DNA of 25,220 nucleotides from a virus. Below the pieces are notes generated by a model. The model saw nothing but the letters and a program-made list of their open reading frames with translations, ran no database searches and was not told where the DNA came from. Positions 4,301-24,062 of this stretch are shown piece by piece (the stretch's first letter is position 1; every line of letters begins with the position of its first letter). Position numbers and translations under genes: made by a program. Location of the stretch: IMG/VR virus record IMGVR_UViG_3300013286_000052, positions 1 to 25,220 of that record; one strand, given 5' to 3'.

Positions 4301-4573
4301 ATGTCTAAAGGCGTTCCAAGTAATCCTAAGCTATACAATGCATTAGAGAGTCAAGCAAACGCTAGATATCCTAAGCATAGAGGTAAAGGTAACTCTCCAG
4401 CAGCAAACAAAATGCTGAGTAAACAGTGGAGTGCTATGGGCGGAACATTTGTTCCTAGTTTAAAAGATGTTGATCCAGATAATCGTGATTATAAAGAAGA
4501 AGAAAAAGCTAGAGAAAAATCAAGGGCGTCACGCAAAAAGCGTGAAATGAAGAAACAAAACTTCGTAGTTTGA
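4301..4573 (+). CDS. Small basic unknown protein
   Basis: A 90-residue protein. The first half (NPKLYNALESQANARYPKHR, then NKMLSKQWSAMGGTFV) loosely recalls short phage proteins with a PxLYxxxxxxA...W..GG layout, of the kind grouped as DUF5872, but I would not assign that family firmly. The second half is a highly charged helix (residues about 62-86, KEEEKAREKSRASRKKREMKK) that is likely to bind nucleic acid or remain extended. AAAGGAG at 4290-4296 lies four bases before the ATG, a slightly tight spacing. It sits between a hairpin and the portal gene. The start codon of the portal gene lies 25 bases after its stop. Confidence 0.7.
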   Translation: MSKGVPSNPKLYNALESQANARYPKHRGKGNSPAANKMLSKQWSAMGGTFVPSLKDVDPDNRDYKEEEKAREKSRASRKKREMKKQNFVV

Positions 4574-19027: not shown

Positions 19028-19138
19028 ATGACAAAAATCTTGGCACATTTGCAAGCATTGCTTTCTCAACTTAATTATTTTGCCGTTTGGTGGAATTCTT
19101 TTGCATTGCAATTATTTTCATTTATTAGGAGCAGATAA
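19028..19138 (+). CDS. 36-residue hydrophobic peptide, possible membrane protein
   Basis: A short ORF of 36 codons fills the gap between the S74 fibre and the first cassette gene. AAGGG (19017-19021) lies six bases before its ATG, and its stop overlaps the next ATG as TAATG. Both signs point to real, coupled translation. The product starts MTKILAHLQALLSQL and continues with NYFAVWWNSFALQLFSFI, a hydrophobic, aromatic-rich stretch long enough to cross a membrane, and ends in RSR. It could be a membrane peptide, a lysis helper or a fibre-associated peptide. No family is recognised, and the lysozyme gene is far away, so a lysis role is a guess. Confidence 0.55.
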   Translation: MTKILAHLQALLSQLNYFAVWWNSFALQLFSFIRSR

Positions 19139-19560
19139 TGGTGACTACTATTGACGGAACAAACGTATACTTCTTTGACGGTTCTTCTTTTAATGGGGAC
19201 TACCCAAGTGGAGTTATTACAGTAGATACTAACTATTCTGAGTTTACTGGAAGCTACGCTATCGGAGCTCTATTGTTTGCTGTTAACTTTTTCTTTGCGG
19301 GTAACTTTCCAGCTGGTCCCTCTGGTTCTCCTTTATCTTATTGGAATTTAAACTCAAATTCTCCCAATTATACATATAATGGGCTTGTTGCAGCTAACCA
19401 ATACTATGGAGGCAGCAATTCATACTTAGACCCTAAGATGGTATTTACTAATGGAGGCTCTGGGGTTGGGTTGGCTGGTACCTGGAAAGGTAGAGGAAAC
19501 CCGTATAACAAGGGGGCACAATACCTTTTGAACATAACTATGATTGAGAGAGTTGCATAA
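19138..19560 (+). CDS. First of three tandem adhesin-like paralogues
   Basis: A 140-residue secreted-looking but signal-less beta-rich protein. It begins TTIDGTNVYFFDGSSFNG, has a middle FTGSYAIGALLFAV segment, then a variable Asn/Tyr/Gly-rich part, then LAGTWKGRG and a final MIERVA. The next two genes keep the same order of landmarks: the opening GT-V-F-DG strand pair, a G-Y-IG segment, (L/S)GTW plus a basic G-rich turn, and the ending RVA. The variable middle suits a binding surface. Its position, after a fibre with an S74 chaperone and before a tail assembly chaperone, suggests a fibre tip or receptor-binding piece. Start ATG at 19138 has AGGAG six bases upstream. GTG at 19141 would align better with the other two starts but the ATG is better placed. 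Confidence 0.65.
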   Translation: MVTTIDGTNVYFFDGSSFNGDYPSGVITVDTNYSEFTGSYAIGALLFAVNFFFAGNFPAGPSGSPLSYWNLNSNSPNYTYNGLVAANQYYGGSNSYLDPKMVFTNGGSGVGLAGTWKGRGNPYNKGAQYLLNITMIERVA

Positions 19561-20000
19561 TGACTACAACTTTATCTGGTACAACACTTACTTTTACAAA
19601 CGGCACAACCTGGACAACTAAGCCTTCTTACGCAAACGTAGGTGGCACATACGGGACTAGCTATGGATTAGGTTCTTATGTTATGGCTAACCCACTTAAC
19701 CCAAAAACTTCGCAATCATATTTGAATAATATAGTGTTAGTAAATGGTAGTGCAGGATATTTAATTCCTTGGCCCACCAACTACTACCCTTACGCTGCAA
19801 ACGTTGGTCCTTACACAGGAGCGTCTAACTATAATACAGTTTCTGGGTTTATTACATCAGTATCTAGTGTGGTTAACTTTCCAACAACTAATACCAACTA
19901 CTATGCTTTGGCAGGAACTTGGAGAGCAGCTGGTTGGGCTGGAGATGGTGCTGACACAGACTTCCAGTACTTCTATCAATTGTTTAGGAGAGTAGCATGA
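19560..20000 (+). CDS. Second tandem adhesin-like paralogue
   Basis: A 146-residue relative of its neighbours. It starts TTTLSGTTLTFTNGTTWTT, has YGTSYGLGSYVMANP in the middle, a variable Tyr/Asn-rich stretch (ATNYYPYAANVGPY-like composition), then ALAGTWRAAGWAG and ends FRRVA. The ATG shares its A with the previous stop (TAATG), and its TGA overlaps the next ATG as ATGA. Compared with the other two it has lost the DG after the opening strands (it reads NG). Function as for the other cassettes: a putative receptor-binding or tip protein, based on position, variability and repetition, not on a recognised family. Confidence 0.65.
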   Translation: MTTTLSGTTLTFTNGTTWTTKPSYANVGGTYGTSYGLGSYVMANPLNPKTSQSYLNNIVLVNGSAGYLIPWPTNYYPYAANVGPYTGASNYNTVSGFITSVSSVVNFPTTNTNYYALAGTWRAAGWAGDGADTDFQYFYQLFRRVA

Positions 20001-20335
20001 CATTAACAGTTGACGGAGTTAATGTTTATTTTTCCGATGGGAGCTATCAAAACAATGGTAGATTTCGTGCTCTAGATAGCAACACATTTTATGGTGCCAC
20101 GTCATTCTCTATAGGTACTTATTTATTAACTGATTTGCAGACAACGGGTATGTTTAATCCAACTAACCCAATACCTTTAGATAGCTGGTCAAATGCCTAT
20201 ACGGGGTTAAACCCAGCTGCAAACAATACGTTACAAGTATATAGAGCCTCAAATAACACGGGAAATCATTTAAGTGGGACGTGGTATTCTAGGGGCTCAA
20301 GTCTTTTTCAAGTACTAATAGTACGAGTAGCATAG
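19997..20335 (+). CDS. Third tandem adhesin-like paralogue
   Basis: A 112-residue relative, the shortest of the three. It opens LTVDGVNVYFSDGSYQNNG, nearly the same as the first cassette, continues with TSFSIGTYLLTDL, has a shorter variable middle, then HLSGTWYSRGSS and ends LIVRVA. AGGAGAG upstream and an ATGA overlap with the second paralogue indicate coupled translation. Loss of about 30 residues relative to the others falls in the variable middle, so the ends are kept and the core varies, as expected for interchangeable tips. No enzyme motif is present. Confidence 0.65.
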   Translation: MTLTVDGVNVYFSDGSYQNNGRFRALDSNTFYGATSFSIGTYLLTDLQTTGMFNPTNPIPLDSWSNAYTGLNPAANNTLQVYRASNNTGNHLSGTWYSRGSSLFQVLIVRVA

Positions 20336-20847: not shown

Positions 20848-21798
20848 ATGACAGCCAGTTACCCAACCAGCGTACGTGCTTATGTGGCACGTGTTGACCT
20901 TGTAGATACAGTTATTGCAGATAACGTAAACTCTTTGCAAGAAGAGGTTGTGGCTCTTGAAACTACTCTTGGTAGTGCAGCTAGTAATAAGAGCCCTCTA
21001 GTATCTGTTTTTGGCGCTACCGCATTTACTACTGTAATGAACGGTACTGGCGGCACATCTTGGCTTACAGTTTATGATCGCTTAAACAACATTGAGAATG
21101 GTTTGCTTAACGGCGTTTCTAACTCTCCATATGTATCAAGATCCGGTGGAAGCGTAATTGCTACCTCTGGTATTAAAGGCCTTGTACTTCAAACAGTGTC
21201 CGGTAGCTTTAACCTATTTGAGTCTTACTCAGCTGCTTCCGTTTTAGGATTCAACCTAGACGCAACTGGTATTCCCAAAGTAGGTACATCTAACGTTCTC
21301 TATGTAGGTAGTTCTGACTACAACACTCTGATAACTAATACCTCTAACTCTTCTACCTCGGCAGCAAGTAAGATTCCTCTGTCTACTGTTACAACAGCGG
21401 GAGATTTAATCTTAGGAACAGGTAACGCTGCAGTTACTCGTCTTGGTATTGGTACTTCGGGATACGCTCTAGTAAGCAATGGAACAACTGCTACTTGGGC
21501 AGTACCTACTGACACATCAAAGATCCCACTATCTACGATATCTGCTACTGGAGATCTAATTGTAGGCAGCGGAGCGGCTGCAGTAACTCGTATTCCTATT
21601 GGAACTAACGGCCAGGTTCTTACCTCTAATGGAACCACAGCTACTTGGGCAACAACAGCTACACCCTATGTTAACCAGTCAAATGGTACAGTAACAACAG
21701 CATCAACCTCTTTGGGAGTGGTTCGTAACGTCTGGGTATCTACCAGTACCTCCCCAACAGGTGGTATTGATGGCGATATCTGGATTGCTTACACATAA
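20848..21798 (+). CDS. Tail fibre / minor tail protein with two tandem 50-residue repeats
   Basis: A 316-residue fibre-like protein. Its N-terminus, SVRAYVARVDLVDTVIADNV with NSLQEEVVALETTLG, is a helical start common in phage fibre and minor tail proteins. Residues about 175-219 and 225-269 are two copies of a 50-residue unit with KIPLST, then GDLI, G-AAVTR, GT-G, and SNGTTATWA. The C-terminal end (about 270-316) holds SLGVVRNVWVSTSTSPTGGI and DGDIWIAYT, a typical small beta ending. GAAGGAG lies before the ATG. The stop overlaps the following ATG (TAATG), so it is coupled to the adhesin gene, and the two probably make one fibre. No chaperone domain is visible on its own end. Confidence 0.78.
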   Translation: MTASYPTSVRAYVARVDLVDTVIADNVNSLQEEVVALETTLGSAASNKSPLVSVFGATAFTTVMNGTGGTSWLTVYDRLNNIENGLLNGVSNSPYVSRSGGSVIATSGIKGLVLQTVSGSFNLFESYSAASVLGFNLDATGIPKVGTSNVLYVGSSDYNTLITNTSNSSTSAASKIPLSTVTTAGDLILGTGNAAVTRLGIGTSGYALVSNGTTATWAVPTDTSKIPLSTISATGDLIVGSGAAAVTRIPIGTNGQVLTSNGTTATWATTATPYVNQSNGTVTTASTSLGVVRNVWVSTSTSPTGGIDGDIWIAYT

Positions 21799-24062
21799 TG
21801 TCGGGGAATATTAAAGTATCAGGCACCTGGCGTAATGCCAGTAATTTATATATAAAAGTAGGCGGTACTTGGCGTACCGCGCTTCAAGCATATGTAAACG
21901 TAGGTGGTAGCTGGAGAATTTGGTACAACACTACTATCAGTGATACATTTACACGTGCTAACACAACAACAGGTTTAGGAGCTACCGAATTAGGTGGTAG
22001 CCTTACTTGGAACTCCCTTATTGGAAACTTTTTTGTAAACTCAGGAACAGCTAGATCAGATAACGCAGTTACTGCTGGAAACGCTGGGGCTCTTTCTTAT
22101 ATTAATTTAAACACTCCTAATGCAACTGCTTCAGTTGGAGGACAAACCACTACTGCTGGAGTAGGTCCTGCTGTATGGGTATCTGCTGCGGGTTCATGGT
22201 GGGCAGCTATTGGATCTAACGGCCAAACAAATACTACATATACCTACAGCTGTAACTGTACATGTAATGGCCACTCTGTTTGTAATACCTGTGCTAACCC
22301 TGCTTTTGGTACCTATACAGGAACAACTTACTATAGCCCTACAGCACATGATGAATTTAAAGTATATACAAACGTAACTACTTACAGTAACTCTGGCTCT
22401 ACCCCCACCACTTCAAGCAGCACGTCTTATAGTTACGCAGGTTCTGCAACCTCATCCTCTGCTACTGTAGCAACACGCTACTGTACTGCAGCAAATGCTG
22501 CGAATCCATCTAATAGTTGTCCTTATACAGGCTACTCAGGTCAGTGTAGGTCTGATGCTACAGGAGCAACATGTAGCTATACATGCCCATCTGGTCAACA
22601 ATCTGGGGCAACTTGTTATGATTGCGGAAGTAACACTAACGGTAATTTATGTTGCGGTACTAGTGCTAATTCTTGTTATACACCTGTTACTACTACTACT
22701 ACTACTTGTGCTACAGGCACATACTATGCGTCTCCTCCATCAGGATGTACAAGCGGTTGTTGTAACTCTTCAACCTCATTACAATGGACTAGCTGTTCAC
22801 AAGGAGCTACTCTTGGCTCTTCATGCCAGGTATGCGATTCAGGACCACAAAATTTAGCTTTTCAAGGCAACCCTACCACTGGTGGATATGGATATTACTG
22901 TACATATAATTATACATATTATGGTACTGGAACAAGTTGTACATATTGCGGAACTACTTTTATTTCTGGTGGTACAGCTAACTCATCTACTGGTGCTGGT
23001 TGTGACTCTTACGGCTTTACCTGCCAAACATGTACTGGTGGTTCTATTACTACTAACTATTACATGCAGATTATTAAAGCCACATCTACTGGCGCCCCAT
23101 ATACTATAGTCTCTACTAGTGCTGATTATGGTACACAGATTTCTAACATTTCAATTACTACATCTGATAACAACCTTACAGCTACGGCTTATGGAACAAC
23201 CGGTTCTTCTTTAGGAACTCTTACAACAACTAATACTGGTACTAAAAATAATGGCGTGGGAATTGTTAAAGGATACTCTGCTTACAATCAATCATCCACC
23301 GGAGATAATTTTTCTGCTACTGCTGGGGCTATTACATATATTCCTGTGGAATATCTTGTAGTAGGTGGCGGTGGTGGAGGCGGTAACGTAGCTGGTGGTG
23401 GATTTTATGGGGGAGGTGGAGGTGCGGGTGGTTTACTATCTGGTACTGTAAACGTAAACGTAGCTACCGCACAAACTCTTACTGTAGGTGGTGGAGGTGC
23501 TGGAGGAACTTACGCTAGCTCACCACATGGAAATAATGGTGGTAATTCACAATTTGGATCTTTCACAGCTATTGGTGGTGGTGGTGGCGGTAGAGGAGCT
23601 GCTGCATATGTTGGTTGTTATGATAGTGCTGGTTCTAATGGTGGCTCTGGTGGTGGCGGTCCTTGCGGTGGAGGTACAGGAACTGCGGGTCAAGGCTACG
23701 CTGGTGGCGGCGGAGATACCGGTGGTGCTTCTGGTGGTGGTGGTGCAGGAGGCGCAGGTACTACTAGTGGTGGCGGACCTGGTGTAAGCTCTTCAATTAC
23801 TGGTACTGCCGTTACATATGCGGCCGGTGGATTTACCTGGTCTTATCCAGGAACTGTCACTGGAATAGGAAGCGGCGGTCATGGAGCTTTCTATAATAGC
23901 CAAACATCTAGTTCTGGTAATAGTGGCACAGTTATTCTTGCTTACTTAAGTACTTATGCGGATCTTGTTATATCTGGATTAACCTATAATCGCAGCACTA
24001 CTAGTAGGCTTGGATATAAAGTATATACTTTTACGGGTGGAACAGGCACAGTTACTATATAA
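21798..24062 (+). CDS. Adhesin with split jelly-roll, 28-Cys insertion and polyglycine domain
   Basis: A 754-residue tail adhesin. Residues 1-43 have three short repeats (VSGTWRNA, VGGTWRTA, VGGSWRIW). From 47 a concanavalin/LamG-like domain begins (ISDTFTRANTTTGLGATELG and onward) and seems to run to about 140 (VWVSAAGSWWAAI). It is interrupted by a segment (about 145-417) with 28 cysteines between 152 and 412, five of them as CxCxC and CxxC near 152-165, and more CxxC at 273, 343, 381 and 409. The jelly-roll seems to resume at 420 (NYYMQIIKATSTG) up to about 510. Residues 519-668 are a glycine-rich domain (EYLVVGGGGGGGNVAGGG and onward), the polyglycine type found in some phage adhesins such as S16 gp38, which forms a helical sandwich. 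The last 80 residues are a beta domain. Function: host recognition, by inference. Confidence 0.75.
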   Translation: MSGNIKVSGTWRNASNLYIKVGGTWRTALQAYVNVGGSWRIWYNTTISDTFTRANTTTGLGATELGGSLTWNSLIGNFFVNSGTARSDNAVTAGNAGALSYINLNTPNATASVGGQTTTAGVGPAVWVSAAGSWWAAIGSNGQTNTTYTYSCNCTCNGHSVCNTCANPAFGTYTGTTYYSPTAHDEFKVYTNVTTYSNSGSTPTTSSSTSYSYAGSATSSSATVATRYCTAANAANPSNSCPYTGYSGQCRSDATGATCSYTCPSGQQSGATCYDCGSNTNGNLCCGTSANSCYTPVTTTTTTCATGTYYASPPSGCTSGCCNSSTSLQWTSCSQGATLGSSCQVCDSGPQNLAFQGNPTTGGYGYYCTYNYTYYGTGTSCTYCGTTFISGGTANSSTGAGCDSYGFTCQTCTGGSITTNYYMQIIKATSTGAPYTIVSTSADYGTQISNISITTSDNNLTATAYGTTGSSLGTLTTTNTGTKNNGVGIVKGYSAYNQSSTGDNFSATAGAITYIPVEYLVVGGGGGGGNVAGGGFYGGGGGAGGLLSGTVNVNVATAQTLTVGGGGAGGTYASSPHGNNGGNSQFGSFTAIGGGGGGRGAAAYVGCYDSAGSNGGSGGGGPCGGGTGTAGQGYAGGGGDTGGASGGGGAGGAGTTSGGGPGVSSSITGTAVTYAAGGFTWSYPGTVTGIGSGGHGAFYNSQTSSSGNSGTVILAYLSTYADLVISGLTYNRSTTSRLGYKVYTFTGGTGTVTI

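Follow-up and report, generated by a model that had tools for sequence, protein, structure and literature searches.

The ultralong CDR-H3 of bovine antibodies has a beta-ribbon stalk that leaves a beta sandwich and carries a cysteine-rich knob with a variable disulphide pattern (PMC5994613). A bias to even cysteine counts has also been reported for bovine heavy chains (PMC7366855). Among phages, the domains of gp20, the central fibre of mycobacteriophage Douge, bind mycobacterial surface glycans (PMC13033339). Phage tail proteins are synthesised in a reducing cytoplasm and as a rule contain few cysteines, and a widespread class of adhesins with up to 50 paired cysteines departs from this habit.

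One such adhesin is encoded in a viral DNA stretch of 25,220 nucleotides (IMG/VR record IMGVR_UViG_3300013286_000052, positions 1 to 25,220), here called the window. It is likely (probability about 0.72) a phage receptor-binding adhesin composed of a lectin-like scaffold, a beta-ribbon stalk and a hypervariable knob tied by disulphides; the structure of the knob, the receptor and the function are inferred, and there are no host or binding data.

The adhesin gene and its parts

The adhesin gene is located between tail-fibre genes and more tail genes, and in its nearest relative (L002) a tail-sheath-like gene lies downstream of it. The gene, its parts and its upstream neighbour are as follows.

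21798..24062, plus strand: adhesin gene, 754 aa (open reading frame)
21798..21941, plus strand: N-terminal repeats IKVSGTWR / IKVGGTWR / VNVGGSWR (phrog_25859, E 2e-9; phrog_6977, minor tail protein, E 0.003)
21942..22229, plus strand: predicted jelly-roll first half, DTFTRA...GSWWAAI, residues 49-144 (AlphaFold2 blocks mostly pLDDT 84-97; family HMM)
22197..22265, plus strand: predicted ascending stalk strand, residues 134-156, model strand 86-108 (AlphaFold2/DSSP)
22251..23033, plus strand: cysteine-rich putative knob C152-C412 with 28 cysteines (cysteine count; all 28 kept in L002)
23016..23081, plus strand: predicted descending stalk strand, residues 407-428, model strand 359-380 (AlphaFold2/DSSP)
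23055..23324, plus strand: predicted jelly-roll second half, NYYMQIIKATS...DNFSATA, residues 420-509 (AlphaFold2 pLDDT mostly 90-97; family HMM)
23346..23945, plus strand: glycine-rich domain PF21722 Gly_rich_2, residues 517-716 (Pfam E 3.6e-8, above cut-off; phrog_2295 E 1.4e-23)
20848..21798, plus strand: 316-aa protein directly upstream of the adhesin, in the same optional cassette (absent in L020; 430-aa counterpart in L015)

Residues 1-48 are short GTW repeats of a type known from phage tail proteins and likely form the segment by which the adhesin is attached. The match of the whole adhesin to phrog_2295 falls mainly on the glycine-rich C-terminus, and the insert alone matches nothing.

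In the closest sibling by the neighbouring 977-aa tail protein (L020, 93% identity in it), the adhesin and the 316-aa gene are both missing from this place (L020:12341-13649). Hence, these two genes form an optional cassette, at a site of the tail module whose content varies. The same site carries a knob protein of 334 aa with 20 cysteines in L015, where the 430-aa counterpart of the 316-aa protein precedes the adhesin, and a knob protein of 1062 aa with 24 cysteines in L038. The window also has three tandem small genes (140, 146 and 112 aa) at 19138-20335 with a common ending of the GTW...RG...RVA type, whose order is kept in the siblings L020, L031, L038 and L015; they likely encode small tail-tip proteins.

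Cysteine content of the segment

The cysteines of adhesin residues 152-412 are located at 152, 154, 156, 162, 165, 229, 241, 250, 259, 263, 273, 276, 285, 286, 293, 304, 317, 321, 322, 333, 343, 346, 368, 381, 384, 402, 409 and 412, with two further ones (607 and 623) in the glycine-rich C-terminus. Codon 152 starts at position 22251 and codon 412 ends at 23033. Cysteine accounts for 10.7% of the segment (28/261) versus 0.14% (8/5574) of the comparison set, which was the 13 other proteins of the window, mostly head and tail ones. The original prediction, made without database searches, had placed 28 cysteines in residues 152-412 (22251-23033) and had described the surrounding fibre genes as almost free of cysteine. 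The count and the coordinates held exactly, and the second statement held with the 8 cysteines in the 5574 residues of those 13 proteins.

The segment is composed of Thr, Ser, Gly, Cys, Tyr, Ala and Asn, along with two His, one Lys and one Glu. The nearest relative keeps 28/28 of the cysteines versus 66% of the other aligned insert residues. Hence, the cysteines of the segment are under selection and are not an accident of composition.

Predicted scaffold and stalk

The window domain was folded with AlphaFold2 from an alignment of 38 sequences. A pLDDT of 90 or more was reached by 183 of 462 residues and blocks of both flanking halves scored high, with the cysteine-rich part mostly below 50. 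Two predicted strands of 23 and 22 residues (134-156 and 407-428) leave the sheet and enter the base of the cysteine-rich part. There is good support for these as the two sides of a beta-ribbon stalk, although they are predicted by the model and their pairing is inferred from secondary structure. The sibling L133, folded from its own alignment independently of the window model, has the same jelly roll, stalk strands that reach the first CxC pair with interruptions, and a knob with pLDDT below 50. That the two flanks make up a single jelly-roll domain is well supported as a model prediction and not as a solved structure.

In Foldseek searches with the L133 model, the best PDB match was Douge gp20 (probability 1.00, E 5.6e-3), and VIP36 and other lectins, rotavirus VP8* and the receptor-binding domain of TM4 gp23 were also near. 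The window's own model gave weak matches to lectin-type folds (best E 0.38), and neither model matched a PDB structure at E <= 0.001. Among viral predicted structures, the L133 model matched proteins of uncultured Caudovirales (E to 5e-24) and minor tail proteins of Arthrobacter (E 2e-5), Gordonia and Mycobacterium phages. The scaffold is likely a concanavalin/lectin-like jelly roll of the kind found in the minor tail or central-fibre proteins of actinobacteriophages; the fold is predicted and glycan binding is inferred.

Sequence searches were negative. No match for the jelly roll or the insert was found in Pfam, NCBIfam, PHROGs or PDB sequences, and no profile of Laminin_G or any other Pfam domain matched the flanks or the insert above cut-off. 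Likewise, tblastn with the window protein, three sibling domains and the N-half consensus gave no match in 50,697 annotated phage records, and a GTDB scan with the N-half profile gave pattern matches with no relative confirmed.

Diverse inserts at one hairpin

Relatives were collected from IMG/VR, starting from the 977-aa tail protein and the jelly-roll halves, and the insert of each protein was located by a pair of profile HMMs (one for each half) run over all ORFs. Between the same two halves, 83 different complete inserts were found, of 53-365 aa with 0-50 cysteines, which are mostly dissimilar in sequence. Clustering at 50% identity yields 47 clusters, of which 46 bear cysteine. Some are near-regular repeats (SPSYPC x4, NPYNPCG units) and others are irregular. 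The smallest has 53 aa and 4 cysteines (L057, L060); other short ones are those of L242 (80 aa, 14 cysteines) and L143 (92 aa, 12 cysteines). In many inserts, a CxC pair forms a clamp at either end.

Un-inserted forms exist in the distant relatives L160, L161, L163 (two copies) and L164, whose matches to the first half have E values of 4e-12 to 8e-17. In these, the next strand follows at once after a short turn, as in NTYFIDAV-PGG-HYQLFKRVAG; the second half of these proteins was identified by eye and not by HMM. Because these relatives have a short turn there, the insert sits at a hairpin turn. The position of the insert is thus fixed at one hairpin of the predicted jelly roll. In L164 (2756-4609), the un-inserted jelly roll is fused to a glycosyl hydrolase family 26 domain.

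These results bear on the original prediction, which had read the flanks as the two halves of one LamG/concanavalin-like domain and the cysteine-rich part as an insertion into a surface loop. The first claim held in the AlphaFold2 prediction, in which the flanks fold together. A lectin-like jelly roll is predicted, and no Laminin_G profile matched. The insertion is supported by the model, by the 83 inserts at the same place and by the short-turn relatives. As to the checks proposed with it, structure prediction of the insert-bearing domain gave a single jelly roll with the cysteine-rich part not predicted, a profile search of the insert alone gave no family match, and relatives yielded both un-inserted forms (short turns) and different ones (83 inserts). 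Neither of the two outcomes named as refuting (flanks that do not fold together; absence of un-inserted forms along with an insert of a well-known family) was observed.

Several individual loci may be noted. At L157:3986-5110, the same jelly roll bears a 199-aa insert without cysteine that is rich in Tyr, Ser and Thr (PYTYAAPYTYATPYT...), possibly a non-disulphide knob at the same site. A single contig (IMGVR_UViG_3300046787_000129) encodes two distinct knob proteins (L128 and L141) separated by about 5.4 kb, both with 16 cysteines, whose knobs are more alike outside the cysteines (71%) than their jelly-roll first halves (55%). In L116 and L117, the frame breaks inside the insert near 4469 in each (...SSNGACMMQ stop), and the remainder lies in another frame and ends in CNCQTCYP and the second jelly-roll half; a frameshift, an intervening sequence or a decayed gene are all possible. 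Cysteine-rich stretches also occur on other tail scaffolds, one fibronectin-like (L050:9717-10370) and one after GTW-like repeats (L074:4901-5569), and therefore disulphide knobs are perhaps not confined to the jelly roll. The protein at L023:18917-20338, with a signal-peptide-like start, CWDGS...CP repeats and a Pro/Ser-rich tail, likely resembles a cell-surface rather than a virion protein.

Even cysteine counts and paired changes

The number of cysteines is even in 83/83 inserts, spread over the 46 cysteine-bearing clusters. The first set was even in 57/57 and the later scans in 12/12 and 14/14; those 26 inserts come from scans made after the even rule had been seen, so that the rule was a prediction for them. 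Prefixes of the same inserts, cut at random, were even in 51.6%. Unrelated ORFs of these loci with at least 4 cysteines lean even (81:46 clusters), which raises the null to as much as 64% even, and this lean likely stems in part from the even-numbered threshold. Under the 64% null, the probability that all of 40 independent clusters are even is about 2e-8. Because many repeat units hold a single cysteine, unselected gain or loss of units would yield odd counts at once. The rule provides a directly testable prediction for each new member.

In close sibling pairs, the cysteines are mostly fully kept while the other insert residues are 59-95% identical. For example, L215 and L218 share 50/50 cysteines at 59% identity elsewhere in the insert. 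Where siblings differ, they do so by exactly two distant cysteines (L103/L021, L114/L110, L148/L144 and L208/L211, with Cys versus Ala at both positions in L148/L144) or by four (L006/L004); more diverged pairs such as L092/L094 and L208/L210 differ at more cysteine positions and the total is again even. Between L017 and L034, two distant blocks are swapped together, SPSYPC-type first and YYYAC-type second versus the reverse, and the DNA between them is nearly or fully unchanged. L103 has one extra cysteine at each of the two places that match these blocks. Such a pattern is expected if the two segments touch and are disulphide-bonded, which does not prove the pairing.

Since the counts are even throughout and cysteines change in distant pairs, the knob cysteines are very likely held as disulphides. 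This evidence is indirect, without chemistry, and neither the pairing pattern nor the fold of the knob is predicted. Evr1/Alr thiol oxidase was found in 0/23 relatives, but the positive control likewise went undetected. Thioredoxin-family genes occur in 6/23 long relatives (the records behind L093, L095, L106, L115, L165 and L218), with no evident link to the knob disulphides.

An alternative is that the cysteines act as ligands for metal ions or Fe-S clusters, as in zinc-ribbon or ferredoxin-like CxxC/CxCxC motifs. The CxxC and CxC spacings and the CxC pair at both ends of many inserts speak for it. However, the counts do not come in fours (22 clusters are divisible by four and 17 leave a remainder of 2), the changes come in twos, His makes up only 50 of 16268 insert residues (0.3%), and no zinc or Fe-S family matches. 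Metal binding is very unlikely. The original prediction had left metal clusters and a dense disulphide net side by side; the even counts and the paired gain and loss strongly favour the latter.

It could also be argued that the insert is drifting low-complexity sequence without structure, given its low-complexity composition and the lack of an AlphaFold2 prediction for it. However, this is all but excluded: the parity rule (83/83) refutes it, the cysteines are conserved (28/28 and 50/50) at 66% and 59% identity elsewhere, and dN/dS is below 1 in all pairs for which it is computable.

Diversification of the insert

Most sibling pairs show a dN about 2-10 times as large in the insert as in the flanks; dS is also frequently elevated, and dN/dS stays under 1 where computable. 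Because dS is raised alongside dN, the likely source is block exchange by recombination rather than point mutation under positive selection.

Another possibility is that a diversity-generating retroelement (DGR) acts on the insert, as the DGR targets known from phages are receptor binders of lectin fold in which a hairpin varies (PMC10743442). However, reverse transcriptase was found in 0/28 relatives, several of them above 100 kb and many of them fragments, and was detected in the positive-control genomes. Moreover, the changes of length and module and the dS raised in blocks point to recombination and repeat turnover. A DGR is very unlikely.

Host and origin

WhiB, a hallmark of actinobacteria, is encoded in 16 of 28 long relatives. 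Among these is L015, which shares 76% identity with the window in the 977-aa tail protein. Hence, an actinobacterial host is inferred for the window phage. That the phage comes from freshwater is an inference drawn from what its relatives are and not from a record. Adhesins of this kind are carried by many uncultured phages, probably of freshwater actinobacteria, and would, if the reading is true, offer a handle on host recognition by phages of uncultured freshwater bacteria.

Proposed working of the adhesin

The adhesin polypeptide would be synthesised in the reduced state, and its jelly roll would fold inside the cell. At one hairpin, the turn is replaced by a predicted two-stranded beta ribbon bearing a knob of Ser, Thr, Tyr, Gly, Asn and many cysteines, all of the latter very likely disulphide-paired. 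The disulphides would probably form outside the reducing cell, once the particle has been set free into oxygenated water; this oxidation is inferred. The stalk may raise the knob off the particle towards the host surface. The disulphides would stand in for a hydrophobic core, because of which the surface residues of the knob could vary almost without limit. The knob, which differs from phage to phage, would be the part most likely to contact the host surface. Receptor binding remains inferred, and so does the protease-resistant receptor-binding head that had been suggested originally.

Alternatively, the knob may be a disulphide-rich, protease-resistant spacer or armour that serves stability, stiffness or sticking to particles or mucus, and not a specific receptor binder. 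Several inserts are near-regular repeats (SPSYPC x4, NPYNPCG), more rod-like than a binding site, and the window adhesin has a separate glycine-rich domain. Glycine-rich domains of this type are adhesin tips elsewhere. However, the extreme diversity of the knobs among related phages, with change elevated relative to the flanks, fits host recognition better, and carriage in an optional cassette fits it better than a passive rod. A spacer is therefore unlikely, and the receptor-binding reading is preferred.

Comparison with known systems

The receptor-binding adhesin resembles Douge gp20, the receptor-binding domain of TM4 gp23 and the minor tail proteins of actinophages in its lectin/CBM-like jelly roll, as judged by structural match. 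Unlike a close homolog, it shares no similarity with them at the level of tblastn, and no disulphide knob is mentioned for them in the relevant sections of the literature. DGR-diversified phage lectins (Mtd, tentaclins) are also lectin-fold receptor binders with a hypervariable surface hairpin (PMC10743442), but they have a C-type lectin fold, a reverse transcriptase and a template repeat, and no reverse transcriptase was found in the relatives of the adhesin. Similarly, the window adhesin ends in a glycine-rich domain (PF21722), as do Gly_rich_2 or T4-like gp38-type adhesin tips; here, however, the glycine-rich part is a separate domain, and most siblings, judged by ORF lengths, stop with the jelly roll or shortly after it. 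No description of such an adhesin was found in the open-access literature on cysteine-rich or hypervariable phage receptor binders. It is likely that the lectin-type receptor binder is of a known kind and its variable part of a new kind, in the absence of binding data.

The bovine ultralong CDR-H3 antibodies offer the closest parallel in build, with a beta-sandwich scaffold, a long beta-ribbon stalk and a cysteine-rich knob that is rich in Tyr, Gly and Ser and varies in length and in the number and positions of its cysteines. In contrast, the phage form is viral and genomically encoded, involves no AID and has a predicted jelly roll instead of an Ig fold, and its knobs measure 53-365 aa with up to 50 cysteines, versus about 70 aa at most for the whole bovine CDR. 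PDB searches revealed no sequence relation to bovine immunoglobulins. By analogy, the adhesin would work like the bovine stalk-and-knob antibody, with contact to the target inferred, but it is no member of that family because there is no homology. On this reading, hypervariable disulphide knobs on a beta sandwich would have arisen a second time, without relation to the first, and the adhesins would be a natural source of disulphide miniprotein binders.

A bolder reading, for which the case is no stronger than the case against, is that phages have evolved in this adhesin their own counterpart of the ultralong cow antibody. It would be a general platform for binding receptors, in which a lectin-like scaffold holds out, on a beta-ribbon stalk, knobs of near-unlimited sequence that only disulphides hold together and that diversify by recombination and by paired gain and loss of cysteines. 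If true, such adhesins would amount to a library of disulphide miniprotein binders supplied by nature.
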